Origin: an uncultured Cellvibrionales bacterium
GTDB taxonomy: Bacteria; Pseudomonadota; Gammaproteobacteria; Pseudomonadales; Cellvibrionaceae
Length of the DNA: 37,337 nt
Assembly (NCBI GenBank): GCA_913020395.1
Contig: CAJWCA010000005.1
Location: forward strand, 1 to 37,337
Reading direction: 5' to 3'
Made by a program: the position numbers and the translations under genes
Part shown: positions 6,226-26,677 of the stretch, in pieces
Layout: each line of letters opens with the position of its first letter
Position numbering within the stretch: position 1 is the stretch's first letter
Notes under the pieces: model-generated
Seen by the model: only the letters and a program-made list of their open reading frames with translations
Told to the model about the DNA's origin: nothing
Databases searched by the model: none

Positions 6226-7809
6226 TTATCTCTCGGAGCCCTTTTCCTCCTTTTTTGCATTCTCCTCCGCGTCCTCTTCGGCTTTCGTTGCATCCAAATG
6301 GTGCTGCTGATCACCATAATAGTTGTCACCTGCGTGTTCCGAAGCCAAGGGGCTCAGGTAGTGTTCAGCCGTCTTGCCCTCTTTGTTCATTGCCAGCCCC
6401 GTAAGGCAGGCCTTCACGATAAAGGCACTGTTCAACACCGTTTTATAAGTGGGATCAAGGGCCGGATGAAGCTCCACAAGGTCGAAACTGACAACATTGG
6501 ACTCTGCACAGAGGCGCCTCACGATGGTAATGGCTTCCCGCATATTCAGCCCACCGGGAACCGGAGTGCCTGTGGCCGTTGCAAAGGCGGGATCAAGCAC
6601 ATCGATATCAAAGGAGATATGAATTTTCCGACCCTCTTCGCTAGCCTCCTCCACCACTCGATCAAGCACTGCATGCCACCCACGTTTTTCAACTTCCGCC
6701 ATGGTGTGATAACGCATGCCTTGCTCACGCATCCATTTAAACCCGGACTTGCCCGGCCCACTTGAGCGAAGGCCGACCTGAATATAATCAGCCGCTCGCA
6801 CATGCCCTTCATTAATTAAGCGGTAAACCGGTACACCATGACCAATAAGGTGCGCGCCACCCCACCAGGCGTCGTAATGGGAATCGAAATGAATAACCGA
6901 CACTTTCTCCTTGCCATAAACATCGGCCAGTGCTGCCACGTTGGGGTACTCCAGTGAATGATCCCCTCCGATTATGACCGGAACTGCCCCAGTTTGGGCA
7001 ATTTCACGCACCTTTTCACGAACATGACTCATGGAGCGTTCGGTGCTGTTGTTGTCGATTGCAACATCGCCGTAATCAACAATCGTTAATACTTTTGATG
7101 CTGCAATTTGAACATATTGATCATGACTTCCTATCGGCCACCCCTGCAGTCGCATGGCCGTTGTGGCTTCAGCACCGGAGTCTCGCCAACCCGACCCCAT
7201 GTTTAAAGGGGCACCGAGTATCGCCACGTCCACTTCCCCTGCAATAAGGTCTTCCTTACTCAATGCCAGAGGCAAACCTCCAAAAGTCGGAGGACCGCCT
7301 TCGCCATCGTAGCGGCCTAGCGCTATTGGCCCATTTTCTCGCTTGGGGTCCATCGACTTGGGGCGCTCTGCACGCCACGCATTAAACTCGGGTGAGCCCG
7401 TGTTAAACGGGATATTGGGTGCATCTCTACCTTCTTTATAACGAAAATGTGACACCGCGTGTTGTATCGCATTCACCCATACTTTTACATCCTCAATCGA
7501 ACGTTCTTCAAGCGCTTCAATAGTATCTTCAAGTGATCCGGCGAACCTCCTTGCATCACCACTTAAAAACTCTATTTCTTCAGGGCTCAGCAGCTCAAGC
7601 TTTGGCGCAATGCTTTCGGGCAACTCGATGGATTCGGCCTTTTTTTTCCGAGGATCTTCAACTTCGAATGGATAGGGCTGGTCTCCCACTACGTGCTCAG
7701 GCGTGGCAGGCAACTCGTCAGCAAGTAACTCGTCAGCAAGCAACAAAGGACTGCCCAGAGAAATGGCCAGCACCAAAACCAATTGCGCCTTATAATTCAG
7801 GTGAGTCAT
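6226..7809 (-). CDS. Exported arginase/agmatinase superfamily ureohydrolase (active-site motifs intact)
   Basis: Signal peptide MTHLNYKAQLVLVLAISLGSPLLLADE; motifs VIIGGDHSLEYP, HFDSHYDAWWG, HISFDIDVLDPAFATATGTPVPGG, VELHP. Confidence 0.88.
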   Translation of the reverse strand: MTHLNYKAQLVLVLAISLGSPLLLADELLADELPATPEHVVGDQPYPFEVEDPRKKKAESIELPESIAPKLELLSPEEIEFLSGDARRFAGSLEDTIEALEERSIEDVKVWVNAIQHAVSHFRYKEGRDAPNIPFNTGSPEFNAWRAERPKSMDPKRENGPIALGRYDGEGGPPTFGGLPLALSKEDLIAGEVDVAILGAPLNMGSGWRDSGAEATTAMRLQGWPIGSHDQYVQIAASKVLTIVDYGDVAIDNNSTERSMSHVREKVREIAQTGAVPVIIGGDHSLEYPNVAALADVYGKEKVSVIHFDSHYDAWWGGAHLIGHGVPVYRLINEGHVRAADYIQVGLRSSGPGKSGFKWMREQGMRYHTMAEVEKRGWHAVLDRVVEEASEEGRKIHISFDIDVLDPAFATATGTPVPGGLNMREAITIVRRLCAESNVVSFDLVELHPALDPTYKTVLNSAFIVKACLTGLAMNKEGKTAEHYLSPLASEHAGDNYYGDQQHHLDATKAEEDAEENAKKEEKGSER

Positions 7810-7818
7810 TCCGTGCTC

Positions 7819-9237
7819 CTAGCGTTGGCCGTGATCAAGTGACAATGGATGAACGTAGTTGGGTTTGTGACCCGCTTTTCGCACTGCGATCCCAACAAGA
7901 CAAGCATTCAACACCGCGTTTGCATGTGTTACTGAAAGTCTGGAGTAGTCCAGCATGGGAGCGAGGTCTGTAATCTCAAAACCAACAATCTCTTTAGCGG
8001 CACAAACATAACGTACCGTTTGGGTGACCTGCTCAATCCCGAGCCCCATTGCTTGCAGTCGTCCGGCCGCGATCATTTCAGCAGGAGCCAGAGCACTCAC
8101 ATCGATGGAAACAAAAAACGCCTCAGGTCCCCGGTCAACTTCTTTGCGAACGCGCTTTAGCACTTTGCTGAAACCTCTCCGCTGAATCTCGGCCATCGTG
8201 TGATAGAAAACACCTTTGTCTTGCAGCCACTGCAAAGTCTCTACATCGACATCAGGTCCCCTTAAACCGACCTGAATAGTATCCCCACCATTCACAATAC
8301 CCTCTTCAAGCAACAAATACATTGCCTGCCTGTCTGAAACGGTGTGATCTTCAAATCGCTCTGCGTCTGGATGAGCACTGAAATGCAATAGACCAAATGA
8401 ACCCGCTCCATGCATTTTGGCAACACCTTTAACCCCGGGATAAAGCATTGAGGTATCCCCTCCCACGATCATCGGAATGGCACCTGTGCCCGCTGTTTCC
8501 GCAATCATTTCTACAACGTGATCCACTGTTCTTTCGATGCTGATCCAATCAAAATAAATATCGCCGTAATCCACCACTGACAATATCTCGAAAGGTTTAA
8601 TGAGTGACTGTATGTCCGGAGTGGCAATGGTATTCAGCGCACGCATTTGATTCGGCGCCCGCCCAGCATCCCGTCGGCCGCTACTCATGTTGTTGGGCAC
8701 ACCAACAATGGCAACGTCAACATTGCCGGCGATCAAATCCTCTGGCCAAATAGCCACCTTAGCACCACCAAAAGTGGGCACACCAGATTTTGGGTGCAGA
8801 TAGCGATGCACGCTGAAAGGGCCAGCTTCACGTTTATCATCACGCAGCGCAGGAGGTGTGCGTAAAGCCCATACAAAATTTTTGGTTTTTAAGTTCAGTG
8901 GTGCGGCACCCATGTCGCGCTCGGGCGAATAGCTCATTTGCCGGGCTATGCCCATCAAGTCATTTATCAGCTTCTCCAAACTTTCCGGACTGCGGCTTGC
9001 GAGTTCATGTTCGAGTTGTCGTTCCGGTATGAACTTGACAGCATCACCCGAGGTGATAAAAGAGCGCTGCTCATGACTTAAAGCATTAAGCTTGTCGGCA
9101 AAAGGTTTCGGCACTACCCATTCGCCTCGCGCAATCGAGGCGGGAAGAAGGAGAAATACTAACAAAGATAAAGCCAGGCTCAGAATATAGCTCGAACTAC
9201 CCACTGGCTTTGCTGGAGATACCGTAATTCTTTTCAA
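7819..9237 (-). CDS. Exported arginase/agmatinase-like paralog with degenerate metal/catalytic motifs (predicted pseudoenzyme)
   Basis: Hydrophobic N-terminal signal; colinear with the downstream paralog; motifs changed to GGDTS, HFSAHPD, SIDVSALAPAE, ITDLAP. Confidence 0.82.
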   Translation of the reverse strand: MKRITVSPAKPVGSSSYILSLALSLLVFLLLPASIARGEWVVPKPFADKLNALSHEQRSFITSGDAVKFIPERQLEHELASRSPESLEKLINDLMGIARQMSYSPERDMGAAPLNLKTKNFVWALRTPPALRDDKREAGPFSVHRYLHPKSGVPTFGGAKVAIWPEDLIAGNVDVAIVGVPNNMSSGRRDAGRAPNQMRALNTIATPDIQSLIKPFEILSVVDYGDIYFDWISIERTVDHVVEMIAETAGTGAIPMIVGGDTSMLYPGVKGVAKMHGAGSFGLLHFSAHPDAERFEDHTVSDRQAMYLLLEEGIVNGGDTIQVGLRGPDVDVETLQWLQDKGVFYHTMAEIQRRGFSKVLKRVRKEVDRGPEAFFVSIDVSALAPAEMIAAGRLQAMGLGIEQVTQTVRYVCAAKEIVGFEITDLAPMLDYSRLSVTHANAVLNACLVGIAVRKAGHKPNYVHPLSLDHGQR

Positions 9238-9511: not shown

Positions 9512-10063
9512 TTACTGTACAAACACCGTCGCGACCGCATAGCTACTATACAGCCCTTCACTGTCGATCGCGGCAATCTTGAACTCATAGTCGCCAGAAT
9601 TAAGACCCGACAGCACCAGCTCCGTTGTCTGTGCATCGGTGATATTTTCCGAGTAGTAAAGAGGCTCTCCCACCTTTTTGAATAATATTTCATAGCCATT
9701 AATTTCATACAATTCAAGCGTCTCTCCGTTCTCTCGGAAGGAAGGCACAGACCAACTCAGTGTTAAGGACGCCACACTGACTTCGGCCTCGGTAACGGGT
9801 GTAGACGCCTCGGTATCAGGTGTAGGCGTCTCGGTAACGGTTGTAGACGCCTCGGTATCAGATGTAGGCGTCTCGGTAACGGGTGTAGACTCGTCGGTTC
9901 CAGCGCAATAGTTACCAGGATAACCCGCTTTCTTGGCCCAGCCTTTTAAATTTTGATTTTTGTCACAAGGGTCCCTTTCTTTTGCCTCTGCCTCGATGCT
10001 GGCAAAAGTTATCAATAAAAACAGGGAAAGAACGAAGGTCAATAAACGCATAGTTAATACCAC
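9512..10063 (-). CDS. Small exported protein with Thr/Glu-rich repeat linker and C-terminal fibronectin type III-like domain
   Basis: Signal peptide MRLLTFVLSLFLLITFASIEAEA (likely start MRLL or upstream M); TPTSDTEASTTVTE repeats; LTLSWSVPSF...YEINGYEILFKKVG...ELVLSGLNSGDYEFKIAAIDSEGLYSSYA is Fn3-like. Confidence 0.75.
   Translation of the reverse strand: MVLTMRLLTFVLSLFLLITFASIEAEAKERDPCDKNQNLKGWAKKAGYPGNYCAGTDESTPVTETPTSDTEASTTVTETPTPDTEASTPVTEAEVSVASLTLSWSVPSFRENGETLELYEINGYEILFKKVGEPLYYSENITDAQTTELVLSGLNSGDYEFKIAAIDSEGLYSSYAVATVFVQ
9790..9897 (-). repeat. 21-bp imperfect tandem repeats (42-bp higher-order unit) within CDS
   Basis: gtaacgggtgtagacgcctcg / gtatcaggtgtaggcgtctcg / gtaacggttgtagacgcctcg / gtatcagatgtaggcgtctcg / gtaacgggtgtagac... 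Confidence 0.85.
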
Positions 10064-17642: not shown

Positions 17643-20357
17643 TTAATAGGTGTATTCCACACTAAGCCCTAAAGTCTGCCCTTTTTCCTCTGTGAAGATC
17701 TCCACACCCTGTCGCTCAATAACAACACTTTCATCCATCAAGTTCTGAATTTTAAACTTCAGCGTAAAGTTTTCCGTAGGATAATAAGAGTAGGTCAAGT
17801 CAACAGAGTTAAAGGGTTGTTCAAAGGCATCTGGCGTGCCGTTTCGACCCGCCACATAGAGTCGCTCACCAAATACGTTATAAGACAGAGTCGAAGAATG
17901 TTTGCCATCAACCGAGTCAAAACCCAGCAATAGATTGGCTGAGTAATCTGAGGCTCCTACAAAACCTCGCGCTAAGTTTGTTGGCGCGTCTGCCGCACTA
18001 CCGACAAGCAGTTCGTGCTCCAGAAAAACGAAGTTACCCTGAATAAAGAAAGGCGACAAAACATCGCTAAACTGATCAAGATTCTTCAGGAACTCAAATT
18101 CCAGACCGGTCATTTCACCGCGCTCAGCGTTGAGGATTTCCACCGCCACTTTCGTGCCACCCGCGGCTTTTTCAAACTGTTCAATCGGGTTTACGATATC
18201 TTTTTGAAACAAGGTCAGCGTCAGGTTGTCGCCGCTATCAAAAAACCACTCTGCTCGAACATCGTAGTTGTCGATAGTAGAGGGAACAACATCCGGGTTG
18301 CCAAATACAACCGCTCCGGTCAAGGGTTCGACGTAGCTGGAAGAAGAGATATCCCTCAGGTCGGGCCGTATGGTTGTTTCAGCGAAATTGAATCGGAGCT
18401 GGAAAGTCTCCGCCCAAAAATCGTCGATACTGTAAGTTGCAGAAAATGCCAAATAGGTATCGTCGTCTGTATAGACTGCTTGCTCAAGCTCTTCAACATC
18501 CGTCGAGATTTGACTGGTCATATACGCCAATGGATCCCAAACCAGACCCACCTGCTGGTAATCTTCATAACGTGCACCCAGCGAGAAGCGCAAATTGTCC
18601 GCCCAGAAGACATCCAGCTTGCCAAAGTAGGCATCCACTTTAGACGCAGCGATGTAACTTTCTGAGTTACTGCCAACTACATCCAGTTTAAACCCAAGTG
18701 CGTCGTTATTGAGATTGTCATCCCCATAAATGGTGCTCAAGCTTTCACCCAGAAGAGGGTCACCGCCGGAGATGGTAGACTCAAGAGAAAACTGTAATTG
18801 TTTATAAGTTCTAACCTTTTGCCAGTAGTCAGACCCACCACTGAGTTCCAGGCGAACATTCTCAAAATCAACAGGTAACAGGGCAACAAAACCGCTGCTT
18901 TCCAGTTGATCATCCAGATCAGTGAATCGGTAATTCGCCTTGGTCAAAGCCTTTACGGAAGACGACAAGGCCAATCCGCTTAGAGGGTCAGCAATTGTTT
19001 CTGCTTCAACACTCAACTCACTGGGTATTTCTGTTGTCGCTGTGCTGTCAGAGTAATACCAATCCAGTTTAAGGCCGGTCAGTTTTGACAATACATCCAA
19101 ACCACCAAAGCGCTCACGGGTAAGCTCCCCAAACTCATGGGAACCGTGAAGCTGATTAACTTCCAGCTCACGCTGTTCATAACGCACCTTGATATCGCGA
19201 TCACCCACCCCCTCTGAAAGAGGACGGTTGTCATCCGCGCCAAAAGTATCAACCAAGGCCGTTTTGTCGTCGGTGTTTCGCAGATACAAACTTGTCAATT
19301 CAATGGCGTGTTCGCTGTCAAGGCGAAAGCCCGCCCCCAAATGCCCTGTCATGCTAACGTTGAACGTGGACTCTTTTTCAAATTCAACAAACTCCGTCGG
19401 ATTGGAAAATTTTCTCGAAACAATGTCGACTTTTCTCCAACTCCGATCATAGTTTACACCTGCCAGCACACCAAACTCTGAACCGTTATCAAACTCCCAG
19501 AGATTTCCGGCATTCATTTGCATCGACATCTCGGGCTCGCCAGAATCATCTTCAATTGAAAAGTTCCGATTTAAGCCAGAGGCAATATCCCGATTGATCA
19601 ACGCCGCATCGGCCGCACTCATGCCCCGATTTTCCGGCAAATTTCTAATCCCCTGGATACTGACATCACCACGATAGGTATCCAGGGCATTGGCCAGCTT
19701 TGCGCTCAAACCGCGGGTGCCGTCATCCTCACCCCACTTATCACTCCCGCCTCCTTGGTAACTTAGGAAATCCCCATCTGACACTGTATTCAAGCCTGTA
19801 CCCACTTGAACCGAGAACACCAGGTCGTCGGGAATACCCTTGGTTTTGATATTCACCGTGCCACCACCAAACTGTGAGGGCATATCAGCGGAATAACCTT
19901 TTTGCACCGACAGCGACTGAACAATCGAAGTGGGAAACAAATCCAGGGGTATAACGCTTCTAGACAAATCAGGTGAAGGTACTTCTGCGCCATTCACCAG
20001 AGACTTGGAATAACGTTCACCTAAGCCACGCACAAAAACAAATTTGTCATCAACCGTGGTAACACCCGGCATGCGCCGAAGGGCGTCGGCAACAGTGGAG
20101 TCGCCTGTGCGGCCAATCAGCTCTGCACCGAGAATGTCCATCGACACTTCCGAATCCATACGCTGGGTGATGACATCGGCGGCTGCATCCCGCAGCCTCC
20201 CCTGCACAACCACTTCTTCCATCGTAGCCGTAGGCGGTGCAACAGTGATGTCTGCTGCGCTGACCTGCGCACTCACCACAGCGCTTATCGCCAGAGTCAG
20301 CAAACTGCAGGTAGATATTGTCAATGTGCTGCTTAGTGTGTTCGTCATTTTATTCAT
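17643..20357 (-). CDS. TonB-dependent receptor (large, VRGLGERYSKSLVNGAEVPSPD plug type)
   Basis: Internal ATG at 20357 (MNKMTNTLSSTLTIS... signal peptide) fits better than 20513, which overlaps the upstream gene. Plug: MEEVVVQGRLRDAAADVITQRMDSEVSMDILGAELIGRTGDSTVADALRRMPGVTTVDDKFVFVRGLGERYSKSLVNGAEVPSPDLSRSVIPLDLFPTSIVQSLSVQKGYSADMPSQFGGGTVNI. Confidence 0.9.
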   Translation of the reverse strand: MNKMTNTLSSTLTISTCSLLTLAISAVVSAQVSAADITVAPPTATMEEVVVQGRLRDAAADVITQRMDSEVSMDILGAELIGRTGDSTVADALRRMPGVTTVDDKFVFVRGLGERYSKSLVNGAEVPSPDLSRSVIPLDLFPTSIVQSLSVQKGYSADMPSQFGGGTVNIKTKGIPDDLVFSVQVGTGLNTVSDGDFLSYQGGGSDKWGEDDGTRGLSAKLANALDTYRGDVSIQGIRNLPENRGMSAADAALINRDIASGLNRNFSIEDDSGEPEMSMQMNAGNLWEFDNGSEFGVLAGVNYDRSWRKVDIVSRKFSNPTEFVEFEKESTFNVSMTGHLGAGFRLDSEHAIELTSLYLRNTDDKTALVDTFGADDNRPLSEGVGDRDIKVRYEQRELEVNQLHGSHEFGELTRERFGGLDVLSKLTGLKLDWYYSDSTATTEIPSELSVEAETIADPLSGLALSSSVKALTKANYRFTDLDDQLESSGFVALLPVDFENVRLELSGGSDYWQKVRTYKQLQFSLESTISGGDPLLGESLSTIYGDDNLNNDALGFKLDVVGSNSESYIAASKVDAYFGKLDVFWADNLRFSLGARYEDYQQVGLVWDPLAYMTSQISTDVEELEQAVYTDDDTYLAFSATYSIDDFWAETFQLRFNFAETTIRPDLRDISSSSYVEPLTGAVVFGNPDVVPSTIDNYDVRAEWFFDSGDNLTLTLFQKDIVNPIEQFEKAAGGTKVAVEILNAERGEMTGLEFEFLKNLDQFSDVLSPFFIQGNFVFLEHELLVGSAADAPTNLARGFVGASDYSANLLLGFDSVDGKHSSTLSYNVFGERLYVAGRNGTPDAFEQPFNSVDLTYSYYPTENFTLKFKIQNLMDESVVIERQGVEIFTEEKGQTLGLSVEYTY

Positions 20358-20376
20358 GATAATTCGCTCGGGCTGT

Positions 20377-22029
20377 TTACTCGAACCACAAACTCTGGTC
20401 GCTATTAGTTTCTTGCAGGCCGAAGGTCCAGCCAGATATCCAATTGTCATCTTCACTGACCGCACCGATGTAACTGCGACCTTCCGTAGGCACAACCGTG
20501 CTGGGGCCACCATTAATCACCATGTCGCCCACGGGCAGCGAATAGAAGCCATTTAGGATTTGAAGATTAGCGTTGGCACTGGCTGTTGGGTCTTCACCCG
20601 CCTCTGCAGTTTGCTGAGTGTCATTGCTGTTGGCATCTAACCAAGCAAGTGTTGACTGACCTTCCAGATCACTGTCAACAAGATCCTGACAAGCCACAAT
20701 AGACTGTTCAAAGATCAGATCTCCGTCCAGTGCTGCCTGCTGCCCTTCGTTATCGATACGAACACAATAGTTGTAATCGTCGTCACCGAGTTTTTCGTCA
20801 CCCGAATAAGCCGTAGTGATCAGCGCGTTCTGAATGGTTGGGAAGTGAGCTTCTCGAATGCGCAATCCCTGACCAGGATCGTGTGTGCCATTCTCTTCAG
20901 CAGAAACAATGCACGTCAGGTTTTTGATCGTAGCAGAGGAGTTCAGGCCCCGTGCGATCATGTCATCAATAAAGGCCTGATCTTTGGAACTGTATGAACC
21001 AATACCATCTGATTCAACACAGCGGTTGCCATCAGTTTCAGATTGAATAACCAGCGCGTAATCAAAGGTACCGATATACCCTTCATCGATATCAATTGAG
21101 TCGTCACGCACATACAGGGCAACATAGTGACTAATGTCGACAGCACCCCCAAACATTTCAACGCCATCGTCGTAAGTAGAGTAGGCCTGAATGTAATCTA
21201 CCTGTGTGCCTGAACCCACCGCGTCAAACGCGATGCCGTTCAATTCGTTGCCCACATCAACCAAGGCACCGGTGTGTTTAACAATGAAGTATTCCAAAGT
21301 ACCGGAGTTATCTGCATCGTTATCGCCACCATAGTTCGTTTGGCCAGCGCCGGCTTTACCTTCCGCAGCAACATGACATTCTGATGCCAGTGCCAGGTCA
21401 ACGCCGCGTGTACCGGTGTAGGAACATTTGTTGGTCACACCAAATCCATTGATGATCATGCCGCCCCACTGGGATACGTCTTCAGCGCCCACGGTGCCAT
21501 CTACGGCATCGCTAACCGATGTGATTGTAATGGGGTTAACCGCTGTACCAACGGCTTCAATTTGTGAACCCCGGTTAATCACGAGGTAGTCATCACTGGA
21601 TTGAAACGCCAAGGTTTGGCCCGCTTCAATTGTGAGTACAGCACCGTCGCCGCCCTGGGTAATTCCCGCTGCGCTCATGTCAGCGTCACTCGTATAGTTT
21701 TGACCCACCACCAAACTTCCCTGAAAAATGTGCACACCGGGAATTGAAGGAATGGTTAGGTCAACCATCAATGGCTGATCCAGATCCACAAAGTTGGTGT
21801 CGTATATGCAGTCGCTTCCGCTAAGGAAACCTACTACCTGGCTGCCATCCATTTCATAGGATGCACAGGGATTATCAGAGTTACTACCGGTATCCGTACC
21901 GTTATTAACAACACTGTTGTCGTCACCAACGCGGTTAGACGGCGCAATGTTAATGTCGCCCCCGCCACCACCACAGGCGCTCAATACGAGCGCCATCACA
22001 CTTACACTGCTTAAGGTCTTAAATTTCAT
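20377..22029 (-). CDS. Lipoprotein, probable right-handed beta-helix/repeat fold, partner of the downstream TonB receptor
   Basis: Lipobox LVLSACGGGGGD; repeated short Gly/Asp/Thr-rich segments (VLTIEAGQTLAFQSSDDYLVINRGSQIEAVGTAVNPITITS); 19 bp upstream of the receptor start on the same strand. Confidence 0.75.
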   Translation of the reverse strand: MKFKTLSSVSVMALVLSACGGGGGDINIAPSNRVGDDNSVVNNGTDTGSNSDNPCASYEMDGSQVVGFLSGSDCIYDTNFVDLDQPLMVDLTIPSIPGVHIFQGSLVVGQNYTSDADMSAAGITQGGDGAVLTIEAGQTLAFQSSDDYLVINRGSQIEAVGTAVNPITITSVSDAVDGTVGAEDVSQWGGMIINGFGVTNKCSYTGTRGVDLALASECHVAAEGKAGAGQTNYGGDNDADNSGTLEYFIVKHTGALVDVGNELNGIAFDAVGSGTQVDYIQAYSTYDDGVEMFGGAVDISHYVALYVRDDSIDIDEGYIGTFDYALVIQSETDGNRCVESDGIGSYSSKDQAFIDDMIARGLNSSATIKNLTCIVSAEENGTHDPGQGLRIREAHFPTIQNALITTAYSGDEKLGDDDYNYCVRIDNEGQQAALDGDLIFEQSIVACQDLVDSDLEGQSTLAWLDANSNDTQQTAEAGEDPTASANANLQILNGFYSLPVGDMVINGGPSTVVPTEGRSYIGAVSEDDNWISGWTFGLQETNSDQSLWFE

Positions 22030-25204: not shown

Positions 25205-26605
25205 TTAGCCTATTTCAGCCATGAATTCTTGCAGTTTGGTCACTGCGGGAATGGCATTGCCGCGAATGCGTCCAATAATGGCCTGCTTCTCTTCGTCATC
25301 CGGGGACGCCGACTTCATCAAAGTGCTGAATCCGTCCAGGCGATTATCCAATAACCATTTGGCAATCTCCGGATGCTGTGACCAGGTGTATTGATTCATC
25401 ATGAACGCCGAGAACATTCTGATCCAGTCGGTATCGTGGTTGGGTAATGGCACAACACCGCAGATCGCATTTTTTTCAGCCTCATCATCATAAGCAGCTT
25501 CGATATGCGCAATGAAGGCGGCGCTGAATACCGGCTGATAGGATCGAACCGTTTGGGGTGTAATCAAATCCCCTTTAAATACTTCTGTGATTCGGGCGTT
25601 AGTAATTGCACTGGCCGAACAATCGACATGAAGCTCGTCTGGGCTGGTAGGTAAAGTGCCCTGCTCAAACACAATTTGGTCTTTCTCCAAACGCTCAACA
25701 CGCCCCAGGCGCACAATGTTTTTGATACGCCGCAGCTCCTTGAGCTCCAGCTGGCTGATCGTGGCGCCGTGAAACATTTTTGGACGAACATCTCTGTCGA
25801 TGCGCAGCAATACGCCGGCCGCCTCCAGGCGATCAAATAAGTCAGTCACAGATTCTGCGTCAACAATGGCCTCCATTTGCAGGGCCTGGGCACCAACGGA
25901 ATCAGCAAAAAACTCAGGCGAGGTCTGGGTATTCCTGCGGTCCAGCAGCCAGGCATCCCTCGGCATGACCCAGCGAATTTCATCGGGGTTAACGCCCTGC
26001 TCAAGCAACCAAAGGCAAGCATCAATGCCTGTTTTGCCCCCGCCGATCACGGTATATCCCGCAGGCGGCACCGTCATGCGAGTCAGGTCGTTGAGTGGAA
26101 TAAATTGCACACCCGGATCAATACTGAACGTTGGTGTGTGGGTTGAGGGCACCGAGGTTTGCAGGAACGTGCAGTCCACGGTCTTTTTCTTTACAGAAAC
26201 GGTATAGCGTTGCCCCGTCACCATCGACTGAAAACGCCCTTCCGAGCTGTATTCACACATCGGAAAATACTGAACGCGACCTGAGTTCAAAAATTTGTGG
26301 CGCATCACCTCGTCAAAATAGGCACTCACCTCAGCGCCGGTCGCCAAATCATTCAGGCCTTTGTTTAGACCAACAGGGTCGAGCCGCCCCTTGCTCAACT
26401 CGCGTGAGCTGACGCCATAATAGGCGGAAGGTTGATGCAGGTTCACAAAGGGGTAGGCGACATTCCAATGCCCACCCGGTTTAGGGTATTTGTCGACTAT
26501 CACAATATTTGCGTCGGTCTCATCCAGTAAGATATCGGCGAAAGCCATGCCGACGGCACCACTGCCGACAATTAGGTAGTCTGTTTCCAAGTGTATATCG
26601 GTCAT
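25205..26605 (-). CDS. FAD/NAD(P)-binding flavoprotein (monooxygenase-like)
   Basis: DYLIVGSGAVGMAFADILLDETDANIVIVDKYPKPGGHWNVAYPFVNLHQPSAYYGV (Rossmann GxGxxG) and YTVIGGGKTGIDA. Start at 26605 preferred (RBS AAGGTG). Confidence 0.88.
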   Translation of the reverse strand: MTDIHLETDYLIVGSGAVGMAFADILLDETDANIVIVDKYPKPGGHWNVAYPFVNLHQPSAYYGVSSRELSKGRLDPVGLNKGLNDLATGAEVSAYFDEVMRHKFLNSGRVQYFPMCEYSSEGRFQSMVTGQRYTVSVKKKTVDCTFLQTSVPSTHTPTFSIDPGVQFIPLNDLTRMTVPPAGYTVIGGGKTGIDACLWLLEQGVNPDEIRWVMPRDAWLLDRRNTQTSPEFFADSVGAQALQMEAIVDAESVTDLFDRLEAAGVLLRIDRDVRPKMFHGATISQLELKELRRIKNIVRLGRVERLEKDQIVFEQGTLPTSPDELHVDCSASAITNARITEVFKGDLITPQTVRSYQPVFSAAFIAHIEAAYDDEAEKNAICGVVPLPNHDTDWIRMFSAFMMNQYTWSQHPEIAKWLLDNRLDGFSTLMKSASPDDEEKQAIIGRIRGNAIPAVTKLQEFMAEIG

Positions 26606-26677
26606 GTTTCGCTGCACCTTTGTCTACAAATGTGTTCATTGATGGAAAGAAGCGTTATGCTGCAGTCTCACATCAAC

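Follow-up and report, generated by a model that had tools for sequence, protein, structure and literature searches.

A Predicted Noncatalytic Paralog Maintained beside an Apparently Exported Ureohydrolase in a Cellvibrionales Bacterium and Its Relatives

A stretch of 37,337 nucleotides from an uncultured Cellvibrionales bacterium, here called the window, carries two adjacent genes of the arginase superfamily, of which only the downstream one (A) encodes the residues expected of an active enzyme. The upstream one (B) raises an evolutionary question: Why would a bacterium keep, immediately before the gene for a ureohydrolase, a second copy that has lost its catalytic site? The explanation that we favor, by analogy with a known enzyme and with a probability of roughly 0.7, is that A and B are subunits of a single exported, probably periplasmic, heteromeric ureohydrolase in which B is noncatalytic.

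The Gene Pair and Its Catalytic Residues

The features of the locus are the following.

7819–9237, complementary strand: gene B, dead paralog of the arginase superfamily and predicted noncatalytic subunit, 472 amino acids, TTG start
9124–9237, complementary strand: signal-peptide-like N-terminus of B, ending near ...LLLPASIARG/EW, with a hydrophobic core and no lipobox (heuristic)
7966–8454, complementary strand: pseudo-active-site region of B, with T262, S287, D302, S381, R393, and D424 in place of H284, D309, H324, D403, T415, and E446 of A
7816–7821, complementary strand: stop codon TAG of B (7821–7819), overlapping the Shine-Dalgarno-like AGGAG (7820–7816) of A
6226–7809, complementary strand: gene A, predicted exported ureohydrolase with the full HDHDDD ligand set, catalytic His, and Glu, 527 amino acids
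7735–7809, complementary strand: signal-peptide-like N-terminus of A, ending near ...GSPLLLA/DE (heuristic)
6472–6960, complementary strand: active-site region of A, with H284, D309, H311, D313, H324, D401, D403, and E446

A preliminary description of this DNA had presented the two reading frames as colinear neighbors on the same strand and had quoted their motifs, in both respects correctly; likewise, the 9 bp between the TAG of B and the ATG of A (at 7809), with the TAG embedded in AGGAG, are found in the window as described. Both proteins belong to the superfamily, as indicated by their scores against PF00491 (Arginase; 235 bits and 1.3e-69 for A, 146 bits and 2.1e-42 for B, with a curated cut-off of 22) and by the arginase fold of their predicted models (pLDDT 79.6 for A and 83 for B), which were built from an alignment leaving out one row, from a plasmid record. 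The top matches in fold searches are structures of guanidinase, guanidinopropionase, and agmatinase. A and B share 37% identity over 433 columns (261 bits), with an E value of 1e-85 that rules out chance similarity, and their homology extends into a region of about 110 amino acids that precedes the arginase domain.

Judged by its residues, A has everything expected of a competent ureohydrolase, namely the HDHDDD ligand set, the catalytic His, and the guanidinium-binding Glu, whereas B has not. At the six di-metal ligands of A (H284, D309, H311, D313, D401, and D403, all kept), B has T, S, H, D, D, and S, so that three of the six are lost. The substrate Glu, E446 of A, is Asp in B. This bears out the earlier count of lost ligands and the reported loss of the conserved Glu, to which the catalytic His must be added: H324 of A, in HLIGHG, corresponds to D302 of B, in HTVSDRQ.

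The same pattern is found in a wider sample of 63 B and 98 A rows, for which we use the numbering of A. All 98 A rows possess HDHDDD and the catalytic His, while H324D and D403S are present in 63/63 B rows and T415R and E446D in 62/63. These four changes are exactly the columns that are at least 90% conserved in both A and B with different letters, and three of them affect catalytic or metal positions; the fourth, T415, belongs to the TGTPVPGG loop, taken here to be near the pocket. Because the losses at H284, D309, H311, and D313 vary among B lineages, the four signature changes look ancestral to B and the remaining losses later, as far as can be read from sequence comparison.

The N-termini of A and B in the clade that includes the window (clade 1) resemble signal peptides according to a hydrophobicity rule, which was used for all such calls. 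In the wider sample the rule is satisfied by 59/63 B and 63/97 A proteins, the lower share of A deriving probably from uncurated start sites.

Origin and Maintenance of B

To follow the pair in other organisms, 85,462 species genomes were scanned with the A/B alignment, and 74 loci, mostly metagenome-assembled, were kept after ranking by similarity to A only, the presence of B being no requirement. The sample represents the best 80 matches to A from two sequence patterns and consequently undercounts distant members, as well as B genes without A. A separate search of 98 relatives and 369 genomes of the class yielded, at the scores given, no further member outside the window's genome.

In a likelihood tree from which nine active-site columns had been removed, all 19 sampled B proteins form one clade (100/99, present in 100% of bootstraps), which rules out that catalysis was lost more than once, independently, within B. 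The paired A proteins also form a clade (91/94, not starred), outside which the solo A proteins branch. The only discordant case, the B-labelled protein L083_10605, which lay outside the B clade in a quick tree, turned out to be a frame-broken fragment of A. Moreover, the subtrees of B and paired A have the same main branching, with Sphingomonadaceae, Alteromonadaceae, multi-gene clusters of the Pseudohongiella type, and the window clade. The simplest reading of these trees would be one duplication, followed by joint descent of A and B. If the pairing of the two proteins has indeed lasted since a single ancient duplication, B, though dead, is probably required as a subunit.

Within the window clade, comprising 26 loci, an intact B lies directly before A in all 25 with a readable upstream flank (the exception, L042, is truncated by the end of its contig); aside from A and B, no neighboring gene family occurs in more than four of the 26. 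In other lineages A precedes B, sometimes in the series A-B-A-B (Pseudohongiella type) or A-B-A (Sphingobium). Gene order and surroundings have therefore changed while A and B stayed together, meaning that their adjacency outlives both. Six loci (L066, L068, L069, L073, L077, and L089) have four ureohydrolase genes in the A-B-A-B series, in most cases placed between a large TonB-dependent receptor on the upstream side and genes for PPIC, HupE/UreJ, and UrtA on the downstream side; the whole pair has apparently been duplicated here, and seemingly more than once.

Could B nevertheless be a pseudogene in decay? Its loss of catalytic residues, and nothing else, speaks for this possibility, which is almost certainly wrong. 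B is retained in both Gammaproteobacteria and Alphaproteobacteria, and decay is ruled out by the intact reading frames of the relatives combined with dN/dS values, computed for the closest genome pairs, of 0.05–0.18 for B (0.03–0.12 for A). B evolves somewhat faster than A, yet under clear constraint. The preliminary description had already considered the upstream gene as maintained, proposing dN/dS as a check and naming, as evidence to the contrary, homologs in which this gene carries a frameshift or the complete ligand set; the ratios are far below 1, hence not neutral, and no such homolog occurs among the sampled clade-1 loci. Its view of an apparently exported pseudoenzyme paralog, maintained and co-inherited with an active partner, thus stands. 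Translational coupling finds no support as a general feature, since gene order varies by lineage and so does the spacing between B and A, estimated in relatives from a small overlap up to 111 bp, so that the 9 bp of the window are not the rule.

The pairwise distances of A and B are strongly correlated (r = 0.90, Mantel p = 0.0005), a correlation that, like the mirrored trees, can come from co-inheritance alone. In some lineages A-type proteins evidently need no B, for copies of A only (for example in L088, L102, and L111) are found in a separate A clade.

Comparison with Known Ureohydrolases

GdmH and the guanidinase of Nitrospira are single-gene, homomeric enzymes, for neither of which do we know of a pseudoenzyme partner, and the known guanidinobutyrases, guanidinopropionases, and agmatinases are cytoplasmic homo-oligomers, whereas A is apparently exported and paired. 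GdmH (PDB 7ESR, 7OI1) and the Nitrospira guanidinase (9FEK) rank first or nearly so among the PDB matches in profile and fold comparisons, while the other enzymes (3NIO, 3NIP, 4DZ4, 7LOL) have the fold and ligand set of A, with 27–30% identity.

Among characterised ureohydrolases, the only kind that we have found to include a dead subunit beside the active one is metformin hydrolase, described as recently evolved and known as MetCaCb, MefH, or MfmAB (PDB 8X3G, 8RYI, 8SNF), whose defining features include an alpha2beta4 heterohexamer. Here, too, the genes lie in tandem, one product having six ligands and the other being degenerate, and the dead member is retained alongside the active one; the identity between subunits is about 34%, close to the 37% of our pair. 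MetCb has five of the six ligands changed and binds no metal, and MetCa without MetCb, which caps its pocket, is inactive and poorly soluble (PMC11271267; PMC11399263). In the MetCb clade the inactive member has lost three to five ligands (PMC11271267), a range and a tandem active/inactive layout that apply also to the window pair, with its three of six.

This likeness needs to be qualified in several respects. The nickel chaperone genes hypA and hypB adjoin MetCaCb and not the window pair; the term "signal peptide" is absent from PMC11399263, while A and B are apparently exported; A and B have their additional N-terminal region of about 110 amino acids; and the residues lost in B are other than those lost in MetCb. 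Profile scores place B closest to A (261 bits), then to guanidinase and formimidoylglutamase structures (166, for GdmH, and 162), well before MetCb (104), and A closer to guanidinobutyrase (195 bits) than to MetCa (106). Chains of metformin hydrolase have 18–24% identity to the predicted models in fold searches, and no MetCb record was among the matches listed in the plasmid searches. We have not filed A and B under MetCaCb because of the profile scores, the lack of adjacent hypAB, and the apparent export; an origin separate from MetCaCb appears likely on the same grounds, if not proven, the sequence part of the argument being profile scores rather than a tree including MetCb.

A dead paralog working with an active one is also known in the AdoMetDC prozyme of trypanosomes (PMC6221367), which has an unrelated fold; there the dead member is an established activator, a role that would be hypothetical for B. 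A structural, heteromeric subunit like MetCb, absent from the preliminary description, is the closer precedent. A second tandem arrangement of ureohydrolase genes, said to be independently evolved, has been mentioned, though not characterised, for Limnocylindrales (PMC11399263); it resembles our pair in being tandem. No report of an exported, paired ureohydrolase was found in the literature searched, a weak absence given the thin coverage of subscription papers.

If the family described here is indeed older, exported as it appears, and derived from a single traceable origin, the design of an enzyme with a dead partner arose more than once. Paired A, solo A, and A-B-A-B clusters would then form a natural series for what a pseudoenzyme subunit contributes.

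Possible Roles of B

According to the heteromeric reading, A would use its di-metal site to split a guanidino compound into urea and an amine. B, whose own catalytic site disappeared when its clade arose, would now be an obligate or stabilising noncatalytic subunit. It would probably form a trimer or hexamer with A, packing against it and shaping its pocket, the role demonstrated for MetCb/MefH-beta. What has been observed is that the two are paralogs, that B lost catalytic residues, arose once, and is under purifying selection, that it constantly adjoins A, and that both have signal-peptide-like N-termini and a predicted arginase fold; from this we infer a physical complex, a dependence of A on B, and a substrate, metal, and compartment. 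Against this reading speak the A-only copies of the separate clade, the mirrored trees, which co-inheritance alone can produce, and the three ligands that clade-1 B still has, with which it could hold a single metal or another ligand.

The last point leads to the pocket of B. Its eight columns are all at least 90% conserved in clade-1 B (hypergeometric P = 0.002 versus other core columns), and a near-invariant Arg, R393, is present in the pocket region. Such conservation agrees with continued binding of some molecule in the pocket, and B might then act on its own in the periplasm, binding or sensing the same guanidino ligand as A or else the product, urea or amine, co-transcribed with A without forming a complex. 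We consider this rather unlikely, given that gene-by-gene co-inheritance and the duplication of A-B units better fit a stoichiometric partner, that other B lineages tolerate more changes in the pocket (four of eight columns conserved), and that the known precedent is a subunit. Slightly less credit goes to B as a strict prozyme, with A folded and nearly inactive until B raises its kcat by a conformational change: the general evidence for a heteromer and the separation of paired and solo A in different clades would accommodate it, but they fit stabilisation or completion of the pocket equally well, and what the family precedent documents is solubility and pocket capping. It is very improbable that B has a different catalytic activity, mononuclear or metal-free, on its residual His and Asp. 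H311, D313, and D401 are indeed invariant in clade-1 B; however, other B lineages have lost D313 and partly H311, and the B proteins have, with hardly an exception, another residue in place of the catalytic His and of the Glu.

Returning to the heteromeric ureohydrolase, a bolder version of it is tempting, even if we regard it as doubtful. The pair could belong to a class of ureohydrolases that works outside the cytoplasm and combines an enzyme with a pseudoenzyme, the second such class to be known and one evolved independently. Its dead subunit would have a single origin, marked by the fixation of four changes in the pocket (H to D, D to S, T to R, and E to D). Occupying the pocket left empty, the Arg so gained may take the place of the metals or of the guanidinium of the substrate, thereby keeping B in a state resembling the ligand-bound one and supporting A.

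Genomic Context

The neighbors of the pair in related clusters suggest, by inference from relatives, that a guanidino-amine is converted into urea and amine outside the cytoplasm. HupE/UreJ-type membrane proteins and PPIC-type isomerases adjoin the pair at 18 loci each, the former hinting at nickel; UrtA is found there with scores above cut-off; and in Sphingomonadaceae the pair adjoins a quinohemoprotein amine dehydrogenase operon (alpha, gamma, and maturase above cut-off). In these clusters urea would be imported and split by urease, and the primary amine oxidised by the dehydrogenase. The A-B pair may reveal a periplasmic route for guanidino compounds as sources of nitrogen or amines.

Solo A genes adjoin urease genes: at L088, L092, L094, L095, L098, and L100–L102 an exported A-type ureohydrolase directly precedes urease accessory and structural genes. 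Clusters of the Sphingobium type, combining exported ureohydrolases with the amine dehydrogenase operon (L080, L081, L084–L087, L090, L096, L097, and L103), suggest a periplasmic guanidino-amine pathway of which we found no description.

This scheme does not extend to the subclade of the window. The window's genome (84% complete) has no match for urease alpha, UrtA, or QhpA, and no convincing urease alpha was found in the 12 nearest B relatives, while the sister subclade has it in 12/13 genomes. A direct transfer of the scheme with urease, UrtA, and amine dehydrogenase is therefore rejected for this subclade, and urea use cannot be carried over to the window. There, either the amine may be what the cell uses, or another substrate may be involved. 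A pair of PPIC isomerase and HupE/UreJ (HupE2) genes is present in the window's genome on another contig (G000:C111, L117:22-3947), among other neighbors and after a predicted exported protein of 631 amino acids; this module may serve other metalloenzymes, and a pair on a separate contig is weak evidence.

Around A and B, between positions 920 and 12025, the window encodes pirin, LysR, a TonB receptor, HTH and SDR proteins, and unknowns. Upstream of B, on the complementary strand, lies a gene (9512–10063) for a small predicted secreted protein having a degenerate repeat rich in Thr, Glu, and Pro (TETPTxDTEAST) and no Pfam match. Two long reading frames of the same strand, of 550 and 470 amino acids (20377–22029 and 25205–26617), are equally devoid of Pfam matches, and the first overlaps the start of the reading frame for a TonB-dependent receptor at 17643–20513.
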